From contig NZ_WBIR01000005.1 in the NCBI RefSeq assembly GCF_009749395.1, positions 124,001 to 188,000 of the forward strand: 64,000 bases of DNA. Reading direction: 5' to 3'. The stretch's first letter is position 1; each line of letters begins with the position of its first letter. A program made the position numbers and the translations under genes. The notes under the pieces were generated by a model, which made no database searches, was not told the DNA's origin, and was given only the letters and a program-made list of their open reading frames with translations. Source of the stretch: Agromyces salentinus (lineage in GTDB: Bacteria > Actinomycetota > Actinomycetes > Actinomycetales > Microbacteriaceae). Of this stretch, positions 26,195 through 37,880 are shown in pieces.

Positions 26195-27214
26195 TCAGGC
26201 GCGAGTCGAGGCGCGCACCACGAGTTCGGGCTGGAAGACGACGTGCTCGTGCACGTGGTCGTCGGCGCCCGACGCCGCGGCCGCCGCCTCCTTCAGCAGC
26301 AGGTCGACCGCGGTGTAGCCGATGAGGGTCGCCGGCTGGCGGATCGAGCTGAGCGGCACCACGGCCGCCGCCGCGAAGTCGATGTCGTCGTAGCCGATGA
26401 GGGCGATCTCGTCGGGAACCCGCACGCCGCCCTGCATCGTCAGGGCCTGCAGCACGCCCATCGCGAGCAGGTCGTTGGCGGCGAAGATCGCATCCGGGCG
26501 ATCGAATGCCTCGCGTTCGCGCAACGACTCCCCGGCTGCCCGCCCCTCGAGCACGGTGAGCGACTCGGTGGAGACCACCTCGAGCGCGGCATCCGCCACC
26601 TTGGCGACCGCCCGACGAGCGCCCTCCAGGCGGTCGGCGACCTGCTGCAGCCCCTCGGGTCCGCCGACGAAGGCGATGCGGCGACGCCCGGACTCGAGCA
26701 GGTGCGAGACCGCGAGCTCGCCCCCGACCACGTCGTCGACGGCGACCGACGAGAACGCGCGGTCGGGCGACTCCCGGTCGACGAGCACGACCGGCGTGCC
26801 GCGCTCGCGGAGCCGCGCGAGGCGGGGCATGTCGTCGGTCAGCGGCGAGATGAGCACGCCGTGCACGCGCTGCTCCTCGAAGAGGTCGAGGTAGGCGCCC
26901 TCGCGCGTCGTGTTCTCGTCGCTGTTGCCGAGCAGCACGGTCATGTGCTCCTCGGCGGCGCGATCCTCCGCGCCGCGGGCGACATCCGTGAAGAAGGGGT
27001 TGCGCACGTCGAGCACGACGAGGCCGATGCTGCGGCTGCGGCCGGCGCGGAGCTGGCGGGCGGCGTCGTTGCGCACGAAGCCGAGCCGCTCGATTGCGGC
27101 CTGGACCCGCTCGACGGTGGCCGGCGAGACGATCTCGGGCCGGTTCAGCACGTTCGAGACGGTACCGACCGAGACGGATGCCGCGAGCGCGACATCCTTC
27201 ACACTGACAGCCAC
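26195..27214 (-). CDS. LacI-family transcriptional regulator
   Basis: A 339-residue LacI/GalR repressor. The HTH is [22 protein letters not shown] and the hinge segment NDAARQLRAGRSRS; the rest is the sugar-binding effector domain. The GTG start at 27214 has GGAGGGA seven bases ahead. The protein is closely similar along its length to the rhamnose-linked regulator at 36726-37775 (for example [27 protein letters not shown]), so the two are paralogues. The gene is divergent from the symporter gene, but no LacI-type palindrome stands out between them, and its target operon is not evident in this window. Confidence 0.9.
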   Translation of the reverse strand: MAVSVKDVALAASVSVGTVSNVLNRPEIVSPATVERVQAAIERLGFVRNDAARQLRAGRSRSIGLVVLDVRNPFFTDVARGAEDRAAEEHMTVLLGNSDENTTREGAYLDLFEEQRVHGVLISPLTDDMPRLARLRERGTPVVLVDRESPDRAFSSVAVDDVVGGELAVSHLLESGRRRIAFVGGPEGLQQVADRLEGARRAVAKVADAALEVVSTESLTVLEGRAAGESLREREAFDRPDAIFAANDLLAMGVLQALTMQGGVRVPDEIALIGYDDIDFAAAAVVPLSSIRQPATLIGYTAVDLLLKEAAAAASGADDHVHEHVVFQPELVVRASTRA

Positions 27215-27395: not shown

Positions 27396-27419
27396 GGTTT
27401 CTATCACCCGATAGAAACC
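27396..27419. promoter_or_regulatory. TetR-type operator before the symporter gene
   Basis: Ten-bp arms GGTTTCTATC and GATAGAAACC flank ACCC. The core TTTCTRTC-N4-GAYAGAAA is shared with the palindrome at 36643-36664 before the guanidine/urea operon. It resembles the classic tet operator half-site CTATC. It ends 21 bp before the symporter start, so it probably overlaps the promoter or 5' leader. Confidence 0.75.
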
Positions 27420-27440
27420 TTCATCCCCTTTGGAGCCCCC

Positions 27441-28964
27441 ATGATCATCCTCGGAGTGGGCATCACCGTCCTCGCCGTCCTCGGCGTCGGCATCATCGTC
27501 GCGAAGAAGGTCGACGGCGACAGCGAGAACTTCCTCGTGGCCGGACGACGACTCGGCGTGCCACTCGTCGCGGTCTCGCTGACCGCGGCCGCCGTCGACG
27601 CGAACGCCACCGTCGGCAACACCGACCTCACCGCCGACTTCGGGTTCTGGTCGGGAGCCTCGCTCGCGCTCGGCCTCGCGATCTGCCTCCTGCTGGCCGG
27701 CCTGTTCCTCGCCCGGCCGCTGAACGCGATGCGGCTCTACACACTCGGCGACTACTTCCGCGTCCGGTACGGGCGGCGCACCGAGGTGACGGCGAGCATC
27801 ATCATGTCGTTCGCGTTCACCATCCTCCTCGCGGGCAACCTCGTCGCCTGCGGCTTCCTCATGGAGCGGTTCGCGAACATCCCCTATGCGTGGGGCATCG
27901 TGCTCGTCGCCGTGCTCGTCGTCGCGTACACCATCGCCGGCGGACTCTTCTCCGACGCCTACACCGCCGCGATCCAGACGACGATCACCATCGTCGCCGC
28001 CCTGGCGCTGCTCGGCTGGACCGCCCTCTCGTTCGGCATCGTCATCCCAGAGGGGCGAGGCCCGTTCGACCTCGGACAGCTCACCGACCCGGCCCAGGGG
28101 GCCGCGATCAACTGGGCGACCCTCGTCGCACTCGGCATCGGCGACCTCGTGGCCATCGACTTCATGCAGCGCATCTTCGGGGCGCGTTCGCCCGAGGTGG
28201 CGCGACGGTCGTGCTTCACGGCGGCCGCGCTCACCGCCGGCATCGGCACGATCTTCGCCCTCGTCGCCCTCACGGCCTCGGCGGTGCTCGGGCTCACCGC
28301 CGCCGACGGCCCCGTGCTGTACCAACTCCTCGACGGCTGGGCGCCCCCGCTGATCTCGATCCTCGTGCTCTCGGGCATCGTCGCGGCATCCTTCTCGACC
28401 GCGTCGGGTGCGATCCTCGCGACCTCGGCCGTCATCGTCCGCAACATCTTCAAGCTGCGCCGCACGACCATCCAGGGTGCACGGGACCCGCTGCTGACCT
28501 GGACCCGCCTCGCGATGATCCCCATCGTCGTCATCGGCGGGTTCGTCGCGATCAACGTCAGCCAGACCGGCGTGCTGCTGACCCTCGCGTTCGACCTCAT
28601 GCTGGCCTGCCTCGCCGCGCCCTTCATCGCGGGCGTCTTCTGGCGGCGCCCGGGCCGGGTCGCGACCCTCGTGTCGGCGGCGCTCGGCCTCGTCGTTCGC
28701 CTGACGCTGCTCGTGCTGCAGCCGACGATCTACGGCGTGCCGAACGACATCCTCTACATCCCGAACGACCTCGTGACCGCCGACCTCGACGGCTGGGTGA
28801 CGCTCATCGCCTTCGGCGTCAGCCTCGCCGCGTTCTTCCTCCTCAGCTGGCTGAGCCCGCGGACCGAGGATGAGCTCGCCGACGAGCTCGAGGCGATCGA
28901 ATCGCTGCGCGCCGAGCAGGCCGAGGCGCCGCGCGGGCGGGACGAGGTCCCCGTGCCGGCCTGA
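27441..28964 (+). CDS. Sodium:solute symporter (SSS family), likely urea/guanidine-linked
   Basis: A 507-residue transporter with about thirteen transmembrane helices. VAVSLTAAAVDANATVGNTDLTADFGFWSGA and the following helix fit the SSS family, whose members import urea, proline, sugars or vitamins with sodium; the plant and fungal urea transporter DUR3 belongs here. The C-terminal 40 residues form a Glu/Ala-rich tail. A TTTGGAG lies six bases before the ATG. The operator 21 bp upstream matches the one controlling the carboxylase operon, so I infer that the substrate is guanidine, urea or a precursor. A hairpin terminator follows at 29030-29061. Confidence 0.85.
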   Translation: MIILGVGITVLAVLGVGIIVAKKVDGDSENFLVAGRRLGVPLVAVSLTAAAVDANATVGNTDLTADFGFWSGASLALGLAICLLLAGLFLARPLNAMRLYTLGDYFRVRYGRRTEVTASIIMSFAFTILLAGNLVACGFLMERFANIPYAWGIVLVAVLVVAYTIAGGLFSDAYTAAIQTTITIVAALALLGWTALSFGIVIPEGRGPFDLGQLTDPAQGAAINWATLVALGIGDLVAIDFMQRIFGARSPEVARRSCFTAAALTAGIGTIFALVALTASAVLGLTAADGPVLYQLLDGWAPPLISILVLSGIVAASFSTASGAILATSAVIVRNIFKLRRTTIQGARDPLLTWTRLAMIPIVVIGGFVAINVSQTGVLLTLAFDLMLACLAAPFIAGVFWRRPGRVATLVSAALGLVVRLTLLVLQPTIYGVPNDILYIPNDLVTADLDGWVTLIAFGVSLAAFFLLSWLSPRTEDELADELEAIESLRAEQAEAPRGRDEVPVPA

Positions 28965-28981
28965 GCCGGAATCGCAGGGCG

Positions 28982-29027
28982 GCCGCAGGCCGCAGCCGCA
29001 GGCCGCAGCCGCAGGCCGCAGCCGCAG
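28982..29027. repeat. 13-bp tandem repeat GCCGCAGGCCGCA
   Basis: Three and a half copies of a 13-bp unit (GCCGCAG alternating with GCCGCA) in the convergent intergenic gap directly before the terminator hairpin. No open frame or protein signal is seen; simple slippage is the likely origin. Confidence 0.85.
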
Positions 29028-29029
29028 GG

Positions 29030-29061
29030 GCGGGCCCGGACGAGCATGCGTCCGGGCCCGC
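29030..29061. terminator. Bidirectional hairpin terminator
   Basis: GCGGGCCCGGACG (29030-29042) pairs perfectly with CGTCCGGGCCCGC (29049-29061) around AGCATG, between the convergent symporter and TetR genes. Confidence 0.85.
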
Positions 29062-29069
29062 CGTCGTGC

Positions 29070-29693
29070 TCACGCGCGGGCGAGCACCCTCGCGACATCC
29101 GCCTCGGTCGCACGCGCCACCCGAAGGCACGCCTCGCCGATGCGCTCGGGCAGGGAGTCCGGCACCTCGCCGTCACGCCGCAGCGGGATCACGAGCTCGA
29201 CGAGCTGCATGCAGCAGGCTCCCGCGAAGGCCGGTTCCTGGGCCGGGTCGATGCGATGCGCGAGCGCGCCGTACACGGCGGCGAGCTCGGCGCGTGCACG
29301 GCGGAACGGCGCGAACGCCTCCGCCGCGACCTCGGGGGCGAGGTACATCGTGCCGATGTTGTGCGGCTCGTCGAGGAGCGTGGTGACGTCGGCACGGGCG
29401 AGGTCGTAGAGCGCGGCGACCGGGTCGGCGGCGTCGAGGCAGTCGGCCGCACGCTCGAGGGTCGGGGCCACCGACGGCTCCAGGAGCGCGAGCAGGATGT
29501 CCTCCTTGCCCGCGAAGTGGTAGTACATGCTCGCCTGCCGCATGCCCGCGCGCTCGGCGATGCGTCGTGTGCTCGTGCCGGCGTAGCCGAGCTCGGCGAA
29601 CAGCGATGCGGCGGCGTCGAGGATCTCGGTGCGGGGGTCGACCTCGGGCCGGCCTGGGGTGATCCGCGGCCGCCCGACGGTCGATGATGCCAT
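29070..29693 (-). CDS. TetR/AcrR regulator of the guanidine/urea genes
   Basis: A 207-residue TetR-family repressor. The HTH is TRRIAERAGMRQASMYYHFAGKEDILLALLE after a basic, Pro-rich N-terminal arm. The C-terminal ligand domain contains CCMQLVELV. It is the last gene of the nitrogen operon, 4 bp after the allophanate hydrolase stop, and faces the symporter gene. The pair of matching palindromes at 27396-27419 and 36643-36664 flanks exactly the two transcription units it sits in and beside, so it is the best candidate for their repressor. The inducer is inferred to be a pathway substrate or intermediate. Confidence 0.9.
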   Translation of the reverse strand: MASSTVGRPRITPGRPEVDPRTEILDAAASLFAELGYAGTSTRRIAERAGMRQASMYYHFAGKEDILLALLEPSVAPTLERAADCLDAADPVAALYDLARADVTTLLDEPHNIGTMYLAPEVAAEAFAPFRRARAELAAVYGALAHRIDPAQEPAFAGACCMQLVELVIPLRRDGEVPDSLPERIGEACLRVARATEADVARVLARA

Positions 29694-29697
29694 GCCC

Positions 29698-31371
29698 CTA
29701 TTGTGCCTGCAGCTCCAGGTAGCGACACCATCCGCCGAACCGCGTGATGTCGGCAGCGCCGTCGACGGCGACGTGCTCGGCGTGGAAGCCCGCGACCGAC
29801 GACCCGTCCTCGAGCCGCACCCGTCCGATGGTCATCGGCTGCGGAAGCCCCGCGACGAACGCCCCGAACCCGGAGGCCGGGAGGGTCCAGACCTCTCCGT
29901 CGATCGCCTCGCCGCCCTGACCGACCCGGCGGAGGCCCGGCTTCGGCGGCACCGTGTCGAGCGCGTGGAGGCGGTACTCGGGCGCCGTGTGCACGCGGGC
30001 CTTCAGCCTTCCGCCCGCGGCGACGAGCTGGTGGTTGAGCGGCTGGCCCTCCAGGTGCGCCCCGACGACGAGCAGGTCGAGCGGCGCATCCGCGATCAGG
30101 CGGGCGAGCTCGGCGAGCCGGCGGTCGCTTCCGGCGGGGCCGGTCAGCATCACGCCGTACGGCACGCCGTCGACGGCGCCCGCGGGCACCGCGAGCGAGG
30201 CGTAGTCGAGCAGGTTCGCGAAGTTCGTGAACCGCCCCATCCGGGCGTTGGCGCCCACCGGGTCCGCCGCGACCTCGGTGAGCGTCGGATGCCACGTGGT
30301 GGTCGGGGTGAGCAGGGCCGCGGTACCCGCGAGCCGCGCGGCGCCCTCGAGCCCGAGCCGGGCGAGCCGCTCGCGGTCGCGGAACACGTCGACCGCACTG
30401 CTCGCGTCGCCGCCCAGGACGATCTTCGCCACCGTCGGGTCGAGGTCGGAGCCCACGAGCTCCGGATGCTCGCGGATGAAGTCGCCGACCGCGGCGGTGC
30501 GCTCCGCGACGAAGGAGCCGCCGTACAGCAGGGCGGCCGCCTCGAGCAGCGGGGCGATGTCGACCTCCACGATCTCGACGCCGGAGCGGGCGAGTCGATC
30601 GACGACGCCGGCGAACTCCTCGGCCCAGCCGTCGGCGAGCCCCTCGAGGTGCTCGGGCGTCGGGATCGCGATGCGCGGCGACGCCTCGACCCCCGGCAGG
30701 ACGGGACGCGGGCGGGCGAGCGGGTCGACCCCGTCGGGTCCCTCCATGAGCTCGGCGGCACGTCGCGCGAGGCGGAGGTCCCGCCCGAAGACGGTCACGA
30801 CGTCGATCGACCGGCAGGCGGGCACGACCCCGGTCGCCGGGATCAGGCCGACGCTCGGCTTCACGCCGTAGATGCCGTTCAGGGCCGCGGGCACGCGACC
30901 GGATCCCGCGGTGTCGGTGCCGAGCGCGAGGTCCACGAAGCCGAGGGCGACCGCGACTGCCGATCCCGAGCTCGAGCCCCCCGAGATGCGATCGGGGCGC
31001 CACGCGTTGCGCACCGCGCCGAACGGGCTGCGGGTGCCGACGAGTCCGGTCGCGAACTGGTCGAGGTTGGTCTTGCCGACCACGACGGCGCCCGCCTCCC
31101 GCAGCCGGGCGACGGCCGTGGCATCCGCTTCGGGGTCGTAGGCGTACGCCGCGCTGCCGGCGGTCGTGGGCAGGCCCGCGACGTCGATGTTGTCCTTCAC
31201 CGCCACGAGCACGCCCGCGAGCGCCAGCGGTTCGCCGGCGGCACGACGCGCGTCGACGAGCTCGGCCTCCTCCGCGACATCCGCCTCGGGCCGGAGGGTG
31301 ATCCAGACCTCGGGCCGGTCCGCGGCGGCAATGCGACGGTACGCCTCGCGCACCCGCCCTGCGGCGCTCAC
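29698..31371 (-). CDS. atzF: Allophanate hydrolase
   Basis: A 557-residue amidase-signature enzyme that hydrolyses allophanate to ammonia and carbon dioxide. The catalytic Lys59 lies in VAVKDNIDVAGLPTTAG, the cis-Ser in SGGSSSGSAVAV, and the nucleophile Ser157 in DTAGSGRVPAALNGIYG. The C-terminal 120 residues (from about DLLVVGAHLEGQPLNHQL) are the extra domain of AtzF/DUR1-type allophanate hydrolases and separate it from other amidases. The GTG start overlaps the carboxylase stop (GTGA at 31368-31371), so the two are translationally coupled. It completes a carboxylase-deiminase-hydrolase route that yields ammonia. Confidence 0.93.
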   Translation of the reverse strand: MSAAGRVREAYRRIAAADRPEVWITLRPEADVAEEAELVDARRAAGEPLALAGVLVAVKDNIDVAGLPTTAGSAAYAYDPEADATAVARLREAGAVVVGKTNLDQFATGLVGTRSPFGAVRNAWRPDRISGGSSSGSAVAVALGFVDLALGTDTAGSGRVPAALNGIYGVKPSVGLIPATGVVPACRSIDVVTVFGRDLRLARRAAELMEGPDGVDPLARPRPVLPGVEASPRIAIPTPEHLEGLADGWAEEFAGVVDRLARSGVEIVEVDIAPLLEAAALLYGGSFVAERTAAVGDFIREHPELVGSDLDPTVAKIVLGGDASSAVDVFRDRERLARLGLEGAARLAGTAALLTPTTTWHPTLTEVAADPVGANARMGRFTNFANLLDYASLAVPAGAVDGVPYGVMLTGPAGSDRRLAELARLIADAPLDLLVVGAHLEGQPLNHQLVAAGGRLKARVHTAPEYRLHALDTVPPKPGLRRVGQGGEAIDGEVWTLPASGFGAFVAGLPQPMTIGRVRLEDGSSVAGFHAEHVAVDGAADITRFGGWCRYLELQAQ

Positions 31372-34300
31372 GAGCCCGCCCCGACCGCGGCGGCGAACTC
31401 GGTGGGCGGCGATACCGGCGAGGGCGGGGCGCCGGGTCGCACGGCGGCGAGCACCTGGCCCGCGGCGACCTGGTCCCCCGGCTTCACGTAGACCTCGACG
31501 ACGACCCCCGAGGTCGGCGCGAGCACCTCGTTCTCCATCTTCATCGCCTCGAGCACGAGCAGCCGGTCGTCGGCCTCCGCCGAGGCGCCCGCCTCCACGT
31601 CGACCCGCCAGACGCTCGCCGCGAAGGGCGCCGTCACCGGCATGCAGCCCTCGGGCACGGGCGTCTCGGCCGCGACGGCGACCGGCTCGTCGTAGACGCG
31701 ATCGAACTCGCCGGCCTGCCGCCAGCGCTCCTTCTCCTCGTCGAACGCGCGACGCTGCGTCGACTGGAACCGGGCGATCGATTCCTGCTCCCGCGCCAGG
31801 AACGCCTCGTACTCGGCGAGCGAGAAGCTGCCCTCCTCGGTGCGGAACGACCCGCGGCCCGCGTCGACCTCCGCGCGCAGCTCGAGCAGCTCCTCGGCCG
31901 ACACGGGATACCACCTGATGCGGTCGAACGGGCGCAGCGCCCACGGGTTCTCCTCGATCAGGCCGCCACGTCGGAACGTGTTCCAGATCTGCACCGTGCG
32001 ACCGACGAACTGGTATCCGCCGGGGCCCTCCATGCCGTAGATGCACATGTAGGCGCCGCCGATGCCGACCGAGTTCTCGGCCGTCCACGTGCGGGCGGGG
32101 TTGTACTTCGTGGTCACGAGCCGGTGACGCGGGTCGACGGGCGTCGCGACCGGGGCGCCGAGGTAGACGTCGCCGAGGCCGAGCACGAGGTAGTCCGCGT
32201 CGAAGACGATGCGCTGGACCTCCTCGACGCTGTCGAGCCCGTTCACGCGGCGGATGAACTCGATGTTCCACGGCGTCCACGGGGCGTCGTCGCGGACGCT
32301 CGACATGTACCGCTCGATCGCGACCCTGGTCGCGGGGTCGTCCCACGAGAGGGGCAGGTGCACGATGCGCGACGGCACCACGAGCTCGCTCGTGGCGGGC
32401 AGCGCGGCCTCGATCCGCTGGAGCTCGTCGAGCAGGGTCGACGCGCGCAGCACCTGCGGGTCGGTCTGCACCTGGAGCGAGCGGATGCCGGCGGTGATGT
32501 CGCGCACCCCCGGGATGGCCCGGGCGACGACGGCCTCCTCGAGGGCGTGGACGCGCATGCGCAGGCCCAGGTCGAGCACGTTCTCGCCGTACTCGACGAG
32601 GATGTTCGCGACGCCGTCGCGGCGGTACGTGACGGACGGCGCCAGCACGACGTCATCGACGACGACGGGCTCTCGGCGTGCGAGCACGCCGTCGTCGCCG
32701 TCACCAGCGGCCCGGCCGTGCTCGAGGTCGGGCTGGAACCGGTGGGCCTCGTCGTCGCGCACCGGCGCGAACCGCACGGTGTCGCCCGGGCGCAGTTGCC
32801 CGACCTTCCAGAACTCGCCGCTCGCGACGACCGCGGGGCAGACGAACCCGCCGAGGCTCGGCCCGTCGGGACCGAGGATGATCGGGGTGTCGCCCGTGAA
32901 GTCGAGCGCGCCGATCGCATAGGCGGTGTCGTGGATGTTGGAGGGGTGCAGGCCGGCCTCGCCGCCGTCCTCCCGGGCCCAGGCCGGCTTCGGGCCGCGC
33001 AGGCGCACGCCGGTGCGGGCCGACTGCACGTCGACCTCGTAGACGGCGAGGTACAGCTCGTCGATGTCGGCGCGCGTGAAGTACTCGGGAGCGGCGTGCG
33101 GGCCCTCGGTCACGCCGATGACCCACTCGTGCGTCAGCCGCGGGCGGCGGGCCTCGGGCGTCTCGCCGCCGACCGCCGCCCCGCCGCCGACCGCCGCCCA
33201 GCCGCCGACCGCCGCCTCGCCGGGCACTGCCGTCCGCGACGCGGCGCCGGGACGGAGGACGTCCCCCGCGACGAGGGCGCGCCCGCCGTGCCCGCCGAAC
33301 CCGCCGAGCGTGAAGGTCGATGCGCTGCCGAGGTACTCGGGGACGTCGAGTCCGCCCCGCACCGCGAGGTAGGCGCGCATGCCGACGGTGGTCGCGCCGA
33401 TCGCGAGCACGCCCCCGGCCGGGACGGCGATCGGGGCCCACTGGTCGACGGGCGATCCGTCGAGGGTGACGGCGGCCTCCGCGCCGGTGACGGAGACGAG
33501 CGTCGCATCCGAGAAGCGCAGGCGAGGGCCGGACATCGTGATCTCGAGCGCCGGCGCCTCCGCCGGGTTGCCGACGGCGAGGTTCGCCTCCCGGAACGAG
33601 ACGGCGTCCATCGGGCCCGACGGCGGCACGCCGACCTTCCAGTGGCCGATGCGGCCGGGCAGGTCCTGGACCGTGGTCATGAGCCCCGGTGCCAGCACGT
33701 CGATGCGGGCATCCGGGTCCTGGGGGTCGCCCAGGGTGCCGGTGTCATGGCGGACCGCGCGCACCGTCGGGTCGTCGCAGAGCGCGCGGAGCATGCCGAG
33801 CCCGGTCACGATGCCGTCGACGCGGGTCGCCGCGAGCGCCTCGCCGAGCCGGTCGAGCGCGGCGTCGCGGTCGTCGGCGTGCGCGATCACCTTCGCGAGC
33901 ATCGGGTCGTAGTCGGGCGTGACGCGAAGGCCCGTCTCGATCCACGAGTCGACGCGGATCCCCTCGCCCTCGGGGAACTCGGCCCGGGTCACGAGTCCCG
34001 GCGAGGGTGCGAAGCCGCGCGCGGGATCCTCCGCGTAGACGCGCGCCTCGAGCGCGTGGCCCACCGGCACCTGCTCCTCGAAGAGGCCGTCCTCCAGCGA
34101 GGCCGCCCCGTCGCGCGCGAGGCGCAGCATGAGGGCGACGAGGTCGATGCCGAAGACCGCCTCGGTCACGGGGTGCTCGACCTGCAGGCGCGTGTTCATC
34201 TCGAGGAACGAGACCTCGCCGCGCTCGGCGTCATAGATGAACTCCACCGTGCCCGCCGAACGGTAGCCGACGGTCGCGGCGAGCCGCCGGGCGGAGTCGT

Positions 34301-35066
34301 GCAGCTCTCGGCGCACGGCATCGCTGAGCCCAGGGGCGGGCGCCTCCTCGATGACCTTCTGGTTGCGGCGCTGGAGCGAGCAGTCGCGGTCGCCGAACAC
34401 CGCGACCCGGCCCTCGCCGTCGCCGAAGACCTGCACCTCGACATGCCGGGCCCGGGTCACGAGCCGCTCGAGGAAGACGCCGCCCGAGCCGAAGCTGCGC
34501 GCCGCCATGGACGCGACGGCGACATAGCCCTCGCGCACGTCGTCGACGGTGCGGCAGACGCGCATGCCGATGCCGCCGCCGCCGCTCGTCGCCTTGAGCA
34601 TGACGGGCAGGCCGATGCGCTGCGCCTCGGCGATGGCCTCCTCCGCGGAGCCGAGCAGGCCCGTGCCGGGCAGCAGGGGCACCTCGGCCGCCTCCGCCCG
34701 CTCCCGAGCTGTGTGCTTGAGGCCGAACGTCTCGATCTGCTCGGGCGTCGGGCCGATCCAGGTGAGCCCCGCGGCCTCGACCGCTCGGGCCGCCTCCACG
34801 TTCTCGGAGAGGAAGCCGTAGCCCGGGTGGATCGCTCCTGCGCCGGTCGCGATGGCCGCTTCGACGATGGCCTCGATGCGGAGGTATGACTCGGCGGCCG
34901 GGGCCGGCCCGAGCCGCACGGCGACGTCCGCCTCGCGGACATGGGGCGCCGCACGGTCGGCGTCGGAGTAGACCGCGACCGTGCGCAGTCCCAGCTCCTT
35001 CGCCGAGCGGATGATGCGGCGGGCGATCTCGCCGCGGTTGGCGACGAGGACGGTGTCGAAGGTCAT
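31368..35066 (-). CDS. Biotin-dependent urea/guanidine carboxylase
   Basis: A 1232-residue single-chain carboxylase. Biotin carboxylase domain: TVLVANRGEIARRIIRSAKELG at the start, ATP-loop SGGGGIGM (161-168), EMNTRLQVEHPVTE. Then AHS2/KipA-like (from about 470) and AHS1/KipI-like (about 790-1030) carboxyltransferase domains, and the biotinyl domain with EAMKM, biotin-Lys1176. A low-complexity stretch of AAVGG repeats (about 610-635, encoded near 33160-33235) interrupts the AHS2 domain. Enzymes in clusters with the two associated proteins found here have been shown to prefer guanidine over urea, so guanidine carboxylase is the more likely activity; a discriminating active-site residue needs alignment. 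ATG 35066 overlaps the preceding stop. Confidence 0.92.
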   Translation of the reverse strand: MTFDTVLVANRGEIARRIIRSAKELGLRTVAVYSDADRAAPHVREADVAVRLGPAPAAESYLRIEAIVEAAIATGAGAIHPGYGFLSENVEAARAVEAAGLTWIGPTPEQIETFGLKHTARERAEAAEVPLLPGTGLLGSAEEAIAEAQRIGLPVMLKATSGGGGIGMRVCRTVDDVREGYVAVASMAARSFGSGGVFLERLVTRARHVEVQVFGDGEGRVAVFGDRDCSLQRRNQKVIEEAPAPGLSDAVRRELHDSARRLAATVGYRSAGTVEFIYDAERGEVSFLEMNTRLQVEHPVTEAVFGIDLVALMLRLARDGAASLEDGLFEEQVPVGHALEARVYAEDPARGFAPSPGLVTRAEFPEGEGIRVDSWIETGLRVTPDYDPMLAKVIAHADDRDAALDRLGEALAATRVDGIVTGLGMLRALCDDPTVRAVRHDTGTLGDPQDPDARIDVLAPGLMTTVQDLPGRIGHWKVGVPPSGPMDAVSFREANLAVGNPAEAPALEITMSGPRLRFSDATLVSVTGAEAAVTLDGSPVDQWAPIAVPAGGVLAIGATTVGMRAYLAVRGGLDVPEYLGSASTFTLGGFGGHGGRALVAGDVLRPGAASRTAVPGEAAVGGWAAVGGGAAVGGETPEARRPRLTHEWVIGVTEGPHAAPEYFTRADIDELYLAVYEVDVQSARTGVRLRGPKPAWAREDGGEAGLHPSNIHDTAYAIGALDFTGDTPIILGPDGPSLGGFVCPAVVASGEFWKVGQLRPGDTVRFAPVRDDEAHRFQPDLEHGRAAGDGDDGVLARREPVVVDDVVLAPSVTYRRDGVANILVEYGENVLDLGLRMRVHALEEAVVARAIPGVRDITAGIRSLQVQTDPQVLRASTLLDELQRIEAALPATSELVVPSRIVHLPLSWDDPATRVAIERYMSSVRDDAPWTPWNIEFIRRVNGLDSVEEVQRIVFDADYLVLGLGDVYLGAPVATPVDPRHRLVTTKYNPARTWTAENSVGIGGAYMCIYGMEGPGGYQFVGRTVQIWNTFRRGGLIEENPWALRPFDRIRWYPVSAEELLELRAEVDAGRGSFRTEEGSFSLAEYEAFLAREQESIARFQSTQRRAFDEEKERWRQAGEFDRVYDEPVAVAAETPVPEGCMPVTAPFAASVWRVDVEAGASAEADDRLLVLEAMKMENEVLAPTSGVVVEVYVKPGDQVAAGQVLAAVRPGAPPSPVSPPTEFAAAVGAGS

Positions 35067-35764
35067 CGTGCGGCTCGTTCCGGACGGGTGACGATCGCGC
35101 GGAGCGGCGTCACGTTGAAGTCGTTGCAGGGGTTGTTCATCTGGGGGCAGTTGGAGATCACGACGATCACGTCGCGCTCCGCCCGGCACGCGACCCGGCG
35201 CCCGGGCGCGCTCATCCCGTCGACGATGCCGAGCGCGCCGTCGGCCTCGACCGGCACGTTCATGAACCAGTTGAGGTTCGAGACGAGGTCGCGGGCGGTG
35301 AGCCCCCATCGCTCGCCCTCGTGGAGGAAGTTCTCGCGGCAGGCGTGCTGGTACGCGGTGTGATGCCCGTAGCGGAGCGTGTTCGACTCCTTGCTGCACG
35401 CGCCGCCGATGGTGTCCTGGCGGTCGATCTCGTTGCCGACGACCGTCATCAGCGGCTCCCCGAGGTTCGAGCGCAGCACGGTGCCGGTCGACACGTACGC
35501 GTTGCCCTGCCAGGCGAGGGTGTCGGGTGCGCTGTAGCGCTCCGAGGTGTCCTCCGCGGCGAAGATCAGGCAGTCGCCCGATTGGTTGCCGCCGACGTCG
35601 ACGAGCGTGAACACGTCGCCGGCGCGCACGATCGCCGACCAGGAGGCGCGGGGTGCGATGTCGTCGTCGAGGATGATCCGGCCGGCGACGAACGGCTCGG
35701 ACCGGTCGAGCACGGAGCCCGCCGCGAAGATCGGCCGCGGCGGGACGGTGGTGGTGAAGGCCAT
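35063..35764 (-). CDS. Urea-amidolyase-associated protein 2 / carboxyguanidine deiminase subunit
   Basis: A 233-residue DUF1989 protein of the UAAP2 type. Conserved Cys and His residues, likely metal or catalytic ligands, are seen in GGNQSGDCLIF, GACSKESNTLRYGHH, HACRENF and SNCPQMNNPCNDFN. In related clusters UAAP1 and UAAP2 form a heteromeric deiminase that turns carboxyguanidine into allophanate and ammonia. It is encoded between its partner (12 bp upstream) and the carboxylase (4-bp overlap). Confidence 0.9.
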   Translation of the reverse strand: MAFTTTVPPRPIFAAGSVLDRSEPFVAGRIILDDDIAPRASWSAIVRAGDVFTLVDVGGNQSGDCLIFAAEDTSERYSAPDTLAWQGNAYVSTGTVLRSNLGEPLMTVVGNEIDRQDTIGGACSKESNTLRYGHHTAYQHACRENFLHEGERWGLTARDLVSNLNWFMNVPVEADGALGIVDGMSAPGRRVACRAERDVIVVISNCPQMNNPCNDFNVTPLRAIVTRPERAAR

Positions 35765-35776
35765 GACGGATTCCTC

Positions 35777-36628
35777 TCAGAGCCCGGCGAGCTCGGCGTA
35801 CGCGATGGTGTTGAGGTAGGCCCGCTCGCGTTCAGGGCTCGCCGCGAAGCGCGGGTCGTCGCTGTCCGTCGCGCGGCTCCGCCACGCGTGGACGCGCAGT
35901 GGGCCGGCGACGTAGTCGGTGCGGGGATCCAGCGGATGCGGCGCGTTCGCGATGAGCACGATGAGCGGCAGTTCGGCGACCAGGTCGACGTGGGTTCCCG
36001 CGCCGGCGGAGCCGATCCAGTCGAGCGTCCCGTCCGCGGCGACCCGCACGCCCTTGAAGAAGGAGGCCGCCGGCGGGATGTCCCGTCGCGTGAGCCCGTG
36101 CTTGGCCGCGGCCATGCGGAGGAGCGCGTGGCCCGACGGCGTCGGGCCCTCGGGCGTCGCGTCGCCGAACCGGCGGACGTTCCATGCATCGCCGGAGGCG
36201 CCGCAGAGCGCGTCATGCCGGCCCGACGTGTCCTCCACGATGGTCGCGAGCACGCGTCCGTCGCCGGAGAGCAGCGGATGCCCCGCGCCGAGGTAGGCCT
36301 GCCACGGGATCTTCTGCGTGTCGGCCACGTTCAGGCGCTCGGCGGTGTTCAGCGAGCTGAGCACGACGACGCTCGCCGAGGCGTCGCCGTCGAGGTCCTC
36401 GAGGCGGATGCGCGTGCCGCGGGCGACGCGCAGGTGGGTGTAGCCCCCAGGGGCGACCGTCTCCGACCAGAGCAGCGCGGCCGGGTCGACGCCGACCGGG
36501 GGCGTCGGGGTCGAGGCGGCCGGCAGGTCGGGCATCCAGGGCGAGCGGGTGCCGCGGGCGCGGGCGTCGGAGCGCGCGGCGCCGACGCTGTCCAGCGTCG
36601 CCATCCGTGCCGTGCTGTCGATGGTCAT
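35777..36628 (-). CDS. Urea-amidolyase-associated protein 1 / carboxyguanidine deiminase subunit
   Basis: A 283-residue DUF1989-family protein, first gene of the operon. The start is set at ATG 36628 because GGAGG lies seven bases ahead of it; a longer frame to 36763 would run across the operator and into the neighbouring gene. The core includes SGRHDALCGASGDAWN and PPAASFFKGVRVAADG, and ends PHPLDPRTDYVAGPLRVHAWRS. It lacks the NCPQMNNPCN cluster of its partner, as expected for the other half of a heterodimer. The N-terminal 75 residues are Ala/Arg/Asp-rich and weakly conserved. The TetR-like operator is 15 bp upstream. Confidence 0.88.
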   Translation of the reverse strand: MTIDSTARMATLDSVGAARSDARARGTRSPWMPDLPAASTPTPPVGVDPAALLWSETVAPGGYTHLRVARGTRIRLEDLDGDASASVVVLSSLNTAERLNVADTQKIPWQAYLGAGHPLLSGDGRVLATIVEDTSGRHDALCGASGDAWNVRRFGDATPEGPTPSGHALLRMAAAKHGLTRRDIPPAASFFKGVRVAADGTLDWIGSAGAGTHVDLVAELPLIVLIANAPHPLDPRTDYVAGPLRVHAWRSRATDSDDPRFAASPERERAYLNTIAYAELAGL

Positions 36629-36642
36629 CGGCCGACCTCCGT

Positions 36643-36664
36643 ATTTCTGTCGTTTGACAGAAAT
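36643..36664. promoter_or_regulatory. TetR-type operator before the guanidine/urea operon
   Basis: ATTTCTGTC and GACAGAAAT arms flank GTTT. The core TTTCTRTC-N4-GAYAGAAA with a 4-bp centre matches the site at 27396-27419. It lies directly upstream of the Shine-Dalgarno of the first gene, so repressor binding would sit on or just below the transcription start. Confidence 0.75.
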
Positions 36665-36725: not shown

Positions 36726-37775
36726 TCAGCGGCCGTGCCGCCCCGGATTCGCCGCCGCGACACCAGTCGGCGCGGTCGAGCGGCGGACGACGAGCTCCGG
36801 CAGGAACACGGTCTGCCGAGGGATGAGGTCGGGGTCCGCGGTCTCCTCGAGGAGGATCCGCAGCGCCGTCCGACCGATCATGCGGCTGGGCTGGCGCATC
36901 GAGGAGAGCGGCACGGCGGCGGCCGCCGCGAAGGGGATGTCGTCGAACCCGATGATCGCGATCTCGTCGGGCACGAGCATCCGTCCCTCGACGATGAGCG
37001 CCTGGAGCAGGCCGAGCGCGACGAGGTCGTTCGCCGCGACGAGGGCGTCGGGTCGTTCGCCGCGCGGGCGGGCCAGGATGCGGGCGCCGGCGGCGACCCC
37101 GGCGGCCACCGTGGTCGCCTCGGTCGCGACGACCTCGACCTCGACCGGCGCGACGGCGTTCTCGGCGGCGACGCGGGCGCCGGCCAGGCGGTCGCGCACC
37201 TGCTGGATCTCGAACGGCCCGCCCACGAAGGCGATGCGGCGCCGGCCGGAGTCGATGAGGTGCTCGACGGCCATGCGCCCGCCGGCGACGCTGTCGACCG
37301 AGACCGAGCTGAACCGGCCGTCGCCGCTGAAGCGGTCGACGAGCACGGCTGGGATGCCGCGCGCCCGCAGGCGCTCGAGGCGGGAGTGGATGTCGCCGTA
37401 GGGCGAGATGAGCACTCCCCGCACCTGCTGCTCCTCGAAGAGGTCCAGGTACATCCGCTCACGGGCGACATCCTCGTCGGTGTTGCCGTAGAGGATCGCG
37501 AGGTTGTGGCTGCTGGCCTCGTCCTCGGCACCGCGCACGACGTCGGTGAAGAACGGGTTCTGCCCGTCGAGCACGACGAACCCGACGGTGGTGCTCACGC
37601 CTGCGCGCAGCTTGCGGGCGGCGTCGTTGCGCACATACCCGAGTTCCTCGATGGCGCGGTTGACCCGCTCGACCGAGTCGGGCGAGACCTCGCCGGGACG
37701 ATTGAGCACGTTGGACACCGTGCCCACCGACACGCCGGCATGCTCGGCGACGTCGCGGATGCGCACCCCAGCCAT
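36726..37775 (-). CDS. LacI-family repressor of the L-rhamnose regulon
   Basis: A 349-residue LacI/GalR regulator with [25 protein letters not shown], hinge [14 protein letters not shown] and a sugar-binding effector domain. ATG 37775 is preceded by GAGGGAG. The gene is divergent from the rhamnose ABC operon; palindromes with a central CG in the intergenic gap (37833-37844, 37867-37880) and a near copy before the catabolic operon (42811-42822) are the expected LacI-type sites. In many proteobacteria rhamnose genes are under AraC- or DeoR-type control, so a LacI-type regulator is a distinct solution. The inducer is inferred to be rhamnose or an early intermediate. Confidence 0.9.
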
Positions 37776-37821
37776 TGCAGCTCCCTCGCCGATGTCGTGT
37801 CCGGTCGTGTACCCGGCGGAC

Positions 37822-37880
37822 TTGACCGCCGATGAAACGTTCCATACAGTAGCCCCTGAATCGTACATGAATCGATTCAT
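37822..37880 (+). promoter_or_regulatory. Promoter and twin LacI operators of the rhamnose transport operon
   Basis: TTGACC (37822-37827) and TACAGT (37845-37850) with a 17-bp spacer form a good promoter. TGAAACGTTCCA (37833-37844) fills the spacer and abuts the -10, and ATGAATCGATTCAT (37867-37880) lies downstream of the start point, so occupancy of both would shut the promoter. Confidence 0.85.

Follow-up and report, generated by a model that had tools for sequence, protein, structure and literature searches.

What controls a small catabolic gene cluster of Agromyces salentinus, and which compound does the cluster serve? In the stretch of 64,000 nucleotides analysed here (contig NZ_WBIR01000005.1, positions 124,001 to 188,000, referred to as the window), an SSS-family symporter gene and an operon ending in a TetR-type regulator gene are each preceded by a 20-bp palindrome, and an earlier reading of the letters alone (the original prediction) had named this regulator as the binder of both palindromes. 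The analysis makes it very probable that the cluster is a regulon with two promoters for the import and assimilation of guanidine, repressed by its own TetR protein of the AmtR type. The features are as follows.

27398-27417, no strand assigned: predicted AmtR box 1, TTTCTATC-ACCC-GATAGAAA, 23 bp upstream of the symporter ATG (27441)
27441-28964, plus strand: SSS-family symporter, proposed guanidine importer (PF00474, 87.4 bits; orthologues in related operon loci)
29070-29693, minus strand: AmtR-like TetR repressor (putative), last operon gene (TetR_N; best PDB relative 5e57)
29698-31371, minus strand: allophanate hydrolase (TIGR02713, 656.4 bits, cut-off 511.05; AH_C PF21986); the GTG start, read from the sequence, overlaps the carboxylase stop
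31368-35066, minus strand: biotin-dependent carboxylase, annotated as urea carboxylase, with guanidine-carboxylase residues (TIGR02712, 1744.1 bits, cut-off 1303.85)
35063-35764, minus strand: UAAP2-type DUF1989 protein, carboxyguanidine deiminase subunit (TIGR03424, 303.1 bits, cut-off 284.7)
35777-36628, minus strand: UAAP1-type DUF1989 protein, carboxyguanidine deiminase subunit, first operon gene (TIGR03425, 278.1 bits, cut-off 205.95)
36644-36663, no strand assigned: predicted AmtR box 2, TTTCTGTC-GTTT-GACAGAAA, 15 bp upstream of the ATG of the first operon gene (36628, minus strand)

Two matching palindromes

Site 1 (27398-27417, TTTCTATCACCCGATAGAAA) and site 2 (36644-36663, TTTCTGTCGTTTGACAGAAA) have no mismatch to TTTCTRTCNNNNGAYAGAAA and over all 20 bp fit TTTCTRTC-N4-GAYAGAAA exactly. 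The presence of the palindromes and their shared pattern thus stand as first described, while the "same 4-bp centre" that had been ascribed to them holds for length only (ACCC versus GTTT). When searching the window with up to three mismatches two matches were found, both being the palindromes, against a mean of 0.04 in shuffled sequences and with none of 100 shuffles holding two or more. The same search of the organism's own genome (4,229,103 bases) revealed the same two places and nothing else, the reversed control pattern giving 0, for a 20-mer flanked by TTT/AAA that differently flanked sites could escape. By itself the inner 14-bp core is not rare, since a search allowing one mismatch gave two matches against a shuffle mean of 4.33, and the weight therefore lies with the complete 20 bp and with conservation.

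The identical 20 bp of box 1 precede the symporter orthologue in locus L056, which belongs to another genus. The core of site 1, CTATC-N4-GATAG, matches the CTAT-N6-ATAG form given for Corynebacterium glutamicum. For AmtR of Mycobacterium smegmatis the motif is said to be CTGTC-N4-GACAG, as Petridis reportedly described in 2016. In actinobacteria with both GlnR and AmtR the consensus is TAtCTGTCa-n2-cGACAGATAT (Chen 2013 as cited in PMC8864220), and the core of site 2 equals the CTGTC-N4-GACAG of the consensus quoted there. The two palindromes are almost certainly docking sites of AmtR.

The regulator

The TetR protein carries an N-terminal DNA-binding domain (PF00440, 63.8 bits, gathering score 24), and its gene was confirmed by gene order as the last of the operon. 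A comparison with 147 PDB sequences gave M. smegmatis AmtR (5e57, E 3.7e-35) as the best relative, and the top six matches (5e57, 5dy1, 5dy0, 5dxz, 5mqq and 6gy3) range from E 3.7e-35 to 9.9e-27, while the next one, unrelated, follows at 2.1e-11. Three of the six entries are labelled only as TetR family and we take them to be C. glutamicum AmtR. Mutagenesis of C. glutamicum AmtR pointed to T42, Q53, S55, Y57, Y58 and H59 as important for binding (PMC2723105), and all six residues are identical in the protein of the window. At E 1e-20 its gene is the single AmtR-like gene of the genome. The protein is an AmtR-type regulator, for which binding to the two boxes and repression from them are predicted.

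An AmtR gene together with two unknown frames, a carboxylase, an amidase and a permease has been described in ten actinobacteria, and in M. smegmatis an amtR mutant is derepressed, AmtR binds the upstream DNA, and a very small regulon and autoregulation are reported (PMC4222082). The original prediction knew of no such TetR-type control for operons of this kind; that AmtR governs them has, however, already been published (PMC4222082; Chen 2013 as cited in PMC8864220), and the control scheme is therefore not new.

In one 20-kb locus of the survey below (L057, 6694-16788) two AmtR-like genes and several boxes occur together, a possible split into two sub-specificities.

Conservation of box, operon and transporter

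A survey of 398 genomes of the host family, counting as near-exact a site with at most one mismatch and as AmtR-like a gene with E up to 1e-20, revealed near-exact sites at 24 places in 17 genomes and an AmtR-like gene in 41. At 19 of the 24 places, all six zero-mismatch sites included, an AmtR-like gene lies within 10 kb on the same contig. Of 47 family stretches that were mapped, 39 had been picked by AmtR homology alone and contain the operon, and the exact core CTRTC-N4-GAYAG is found in 35 of these (49 sites, against one for the reversed control). When taking all 70 mapped loci with AmtR and UAAP1, among which many of the class-level ones had been chosen for their site, the core is found in 63 (98 sites, one for the control), and in eight of the 11 class-level loci with both genes that were chosen by UAAP1.

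At class level, 384 genomes were surveyed; 32 have a near-exact site and 41 UAAP1 above its cut-off, the latter being found in 26 of the 32 genomes with a site versus 15 of the 352 others (Fisher p 2.8e-24). Among the six site genomes without UAAP1, L140 and L142 have the site adjoining an AmtR-like gene, as autoregulation would predict. A further, named sample was picked by a CgdA-like protein as the best 80 of 114 relatives (Mycolicibacterium, Gordonia, Rhodococcus, Williamsia, Tsukamurella and a few other genera); in this sample 73 of 80 loci carry the core (95 sites, none for the control), and at 61 of the 80 the stretch contains an AmtR-like gene. The boxes keep their position ahead of transporter and operon in other genera. 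The core of the palindrome expected beside homologous operons was thus found at the large majority of loci in both the AmtR-selected and the named sample, which together with the kinship of the regulator and the fit to the consensus argues for the TetR protein as the predicted binder; the comparison across relatives likewise speaks for a small regulon, as had been proposed.

The transporter next to the operon varies. In 156 operon loci, four of them being the same stretch seen twice, an amino-acid-type (APC) permease (PF13520) is present in 128, an SSS match in 15, neither in 13 and both in none, and a box lies within 250 bp upstream of 122 of the 128 permeases and 10 of the 15 symporters. Ten genomes of one class-level genus contain two near-exact sites (8.4-12.0 kb apart in nine, 2.4 kb in one), one before UAAP1 and the other before the permease, an arrangement like that of the window except for the type of transporter. 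Because this box layout recurs and SSS symporter and APC permease exclude one another, the symporter can be assigned to the pathway of the operon, as the original prediction had done; for this there is good evidence in the comparison of loci, symporter orthologues recurring beside the operon. Synteny, the shared boxes and the exclusion with the APC permease suggest guanidine as a candidate substrate of the symporter.

Some observations weigh against so close a tie of box, regulator and operon. Five of the 24 near-exact family sites have no AmtR-like gene nearby (G259, G262, G024, G208 and G287), the exact core is missing in four of the 39 AmtR-selected loci (L079, L082, L085 and L092; three have a site with one or two mismatches), and the class-level site loci L133, L135, L148 and L162 show neither AmtR nor operon in the stretch. 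No box stands ahead of five of the 15 SSS matches, two of the five being matches of 46-49% far from the operon, and the named sample did not include M. smegmatis. About 24 permease-led loci seemed at first to belong here as well, being apparently without a site at up to two mismatches, but a scan for the core revealed that in most of them it does precede the permease, set between different flanks, often TACCTGTC-N4-GACAGGTA. As for L162, it holds one perfect palindrome and, 41 bp off, a second copy with two mismatches.

Guanidine and the enzymes of the operon

Both carboxyguanidine deiminase subunits and an allophanate hydrolase are encoded in the operon (TIGR03425, TIGR03424 and TIGR02713), and its first four genes all score above the curated cut-offs of their models. 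As criteria for a guanidine carboxylase, Asp at positions 1330 and 1584 of the Kluyveromyces lactis enzyme has been given (PMC11410670), and the Asp/Asn rule separating guanidine from urea carboxylases is also found in a review (PMC12186494). In the carboxylase of the window an Asp is aligned to Asn1330 of the K. lactis urea amidolyase and Asp1584 is retained. The guanidine-type Asp is shared by 73 of 77 carboxylases of the mapped loci and by all 80 of the named ones, or, with each duplicate entered a single time, by 149 of 153; the four exceptions have Met (L179-L182) and belong to divergent operons in whose stretches no AmtR-like gene is present. The enzyme is read as a guanidine carboxylase, its substrate preference being predicted from these residues.

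A urease is encoded elsewhere in the genome, and since it is, a second route for urea would be redundant. Given the Asp signature and the urease, urea was rejected as the main substrate, and the "guanidine/urea" operon that had been proposed is read as one for guanidine.

The releasing signal

In C. glutamicum AmtR is released by a PII protein (PMC4617892). A search of the present genome for PII (PF00543) gave 0 matches, the same search being positive in 13 of 14 control genomes, and PII was rejected as the releasing partner of AmtR in this genome. When 33 of the 40 other AmtR-bearing relatives were searched PII was found in one; its absence may be a trait of the whole host family, the relatives searched all being AmtR-bearing.

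Among 137 distinct AmtR-like segments six residues are nearly invariant: D102 (137/137), N112 (134/137), Y117 (136/137), E121 (133/137), Y141 (130/130) and E166 (116/117). All six are kept in M. smegmatis, while in C. glutamicum D102, E121 and Y141 are replaced by E, I and F. On the thin evidence of one C. glutamicum sequence, the pattern might fit a small-molecule site on which constraint eased once PII had assumed the role. In the open-licence PMC literature nothing linking AmtR with guanidine was found, the matches being unrelated insect work, and no small-molecule ligand of AmtR was found there either, despite purified protein and crystal structures.

The signal is presumably guanidine or an intermediate of the pathway and not PII. 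It is quite possible, though somewhat short of even, that AmtR either is a guanidine-sensing repressor or derives from one; the suggestion draws on the guanidine-operon target conserved across many actinobacteria, the near absence of PII from the AmtR-bearing genomes examined in the host family, and the acidic and aromatic ligand-domain residues D102, E121 and Y141 that are kept in M. smegmatis and changed in C. glutamicum. If true, AmtR would be a protein sensor of guanidine beside riboswitches in one genome, with RNA serving export and protein serving assimilation.

A scan of the window for Rfam families at gathering score revealed none, and control of the operon by a guanidine riboswitch was dismissed. 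Genome-wide results concern guanidine-I and guanidine-III, guanidine-II and guanidine-IV being sought in the window scan only. A guanidine-III riboswitch above threshold (51.2 bits versus 36) is found at G000:C5:96071-96137 (L173, 6072-6138, minus strand), 14 nt ahead of an SMR-type exporter gene (SugE model 86.4 bits, below the cut-off of 126), and a full-length guanidine-I match below threshold (53.4 bits versus 63) at G000:C17:28159-28266 (L264, 1501-1608, minus strand), 39 nt ahead of an EamA-type transporter gene. The latter could be a divergent riboswitch or one of variant specificity. Export under RNA control (guanidine-III) and assimilation under AmtR boxes would occur side by side in this one genome.

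Surroundings and origin of the cluster

The symporter unit (plus strand) and the operon (minus strand) are convergent, and between the symporter and TetR genes a perfect 13-bp tandem repeat of 3.6 copies is situated at 28982-29028; an 18-bp repeat lies within the carboxylase gene at 33164-33222. RbsR-like LacI genes at 26195-27214 and 36726-37880, 61% identical to each other, flank the cluster, which looks as if inserted between two duplicated sugar regulators, and to its right ABC-transporter-like sugar genes follow (judged by eye). Nine other genomes of the same genus were searched and none has the site or an AmtR-like gene. The nearest relative is L056, with 73-91% identity gene by gene, and horizontal gain or repeated loss elsewhere in the genus is the likely explanation for its presence in this genome.

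Alternative explanations

The same boxes and the same repression could operate with no inducer at all, AmtR being a constant repressor overridden by nitrogen status as in M. smegmatis. There GlnR activates the operon, nitrogen control is lost without GlnR and kept without AmtR, and neither urea nor several amino acids, each supplied at 0.5-5 mM, altered the binding of AmtR (PMC4222082); a cis antisense RNA affecting amtR is also described (PMC4617892). Guanidine, carboxyguanidine and allophanate are, however, not among the effectors named for M. smegmatis AmtR in section 10 of PMC4222082. The amtR genes of the host family moreover sit in a purely catabolic cluster in genomes of which 33 of the 34 examined have no PII, and the six near-invariant residues lie in what is presumed to be a ligand domain. 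A constant repressor is on this balance conceivable yet rather doubtful.

That the regulon serves urea, with a urea carboxylase, an allophanate hydrolase and a urea importer, is what the names in use would suggest, as the family models say urea carboxylase and the AmtR literature calls the operon urea degradation, but Asp in place of Asn at the discriminating position, CgdA/B-type proteins above their cut-offs and a urease elsewhere make it improbable. It is still less probable, and indeed very unlikely, that a different regulator acts on the palindromes: one of the two LacI-type proteins would be at hand on either side, but the LacI genes adjoin sugar-type genes, while the box follows AmtR and operon across families, fits the AmtR consensus, and has one AmtR-like gene (E 1e-20) to match it in the genome. 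As to chance inverted repeats, RNA hairpins or terminators with no protein partner, inverted repeats are common near genes and the relaxed core turns up readily in shuffled sequences, yet the exact pair is unique in 4.23 Mb and its position is conserved before transporter and operon in other genera. A terminator scan returned neither site, so that the palindromes were rejected as terminators, and one stem-loop of different sequence ends beside site 2; a pair of sites without a protein partner is hardly credible.

Proposed regulation and comparison with known systems

In the guanidine regulon proposed here, AmtR dimers would occupy the two 20-bp boxes, before the symporter and before the operon and in each case immediately ahead of the ribosome-binding site, and would block transcription of the symporter as well as of the CgdA/B-type deiminase, guanidine carboxylase, allophanate hydrolase and amtR. 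With amtR at the end of the repressed operon, AmtR would limit its own production. Once a signal frees AmtR, the symporter would import guanidine and the enzymes would break it down to ammonia and CO2, with carboxyguanidine and allophanate as intermediates. What is new, as far as the literature was searched, is the variant in which a symporter has a box to itself, the interpretation of the AmtR operon as one for guanidine, and its persistence without PII. Such a reading would turn the puzzling negative effector result from M. smegmatis into a cheap experiment, would assign an SSS symporter to guanidine uptake, and would open a direct way of testing whether a protein senses guanidine.

The riboswitch-controlled guanidine carboxylase pathway (PMC12186494, PMC11410670) shares with the cluster a guanidine carboxylase, a carboxyguanidine deiminase and an allophanate hydrolase, while the window has AmtR boxes and no riboswitch, and an SSS importer and not an ABC or APC one. 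AmtR of C. glutamicum belongs by sequence to the same TetR branch, has the same six DNA-contact residues and a CTAT-N6-ATAG box like that of site 1, but it regulates nitrogen metabolism globally, with about 35 target genes, and PII (GlnK) releases it (PMC2723105, PMC8864220), whereas the present genome has no PII and, at the stringency searched (20-mer, up to three mismatches), only two boxes. In Streptomyces avermitilis AmtRsav has the consensus box quoted above (Chen 2013 as cited in PMC8864220) and adjoins carboxylase genes (Table 3 of PMC4222082), the differences being a permease instead of the symporter, the gene order and a divergent amtR (PMC4222082). The AmtR-urea carboxylase regulon of M. 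smegmatis is alike in its AmtR-type TetR protein, in a box before the transporter, in urf1 and urf2 with carboxylase and amidase, and in a very small regulon with autoregulation; there, however, an amino acid permease heads the operon and amtR lies elsewhere (PMC4222082), while in the window the transporter is an SSS symporter with a separate promoter, amtR closes the operon, and the enzyme is read as a guanidine carboxylase.

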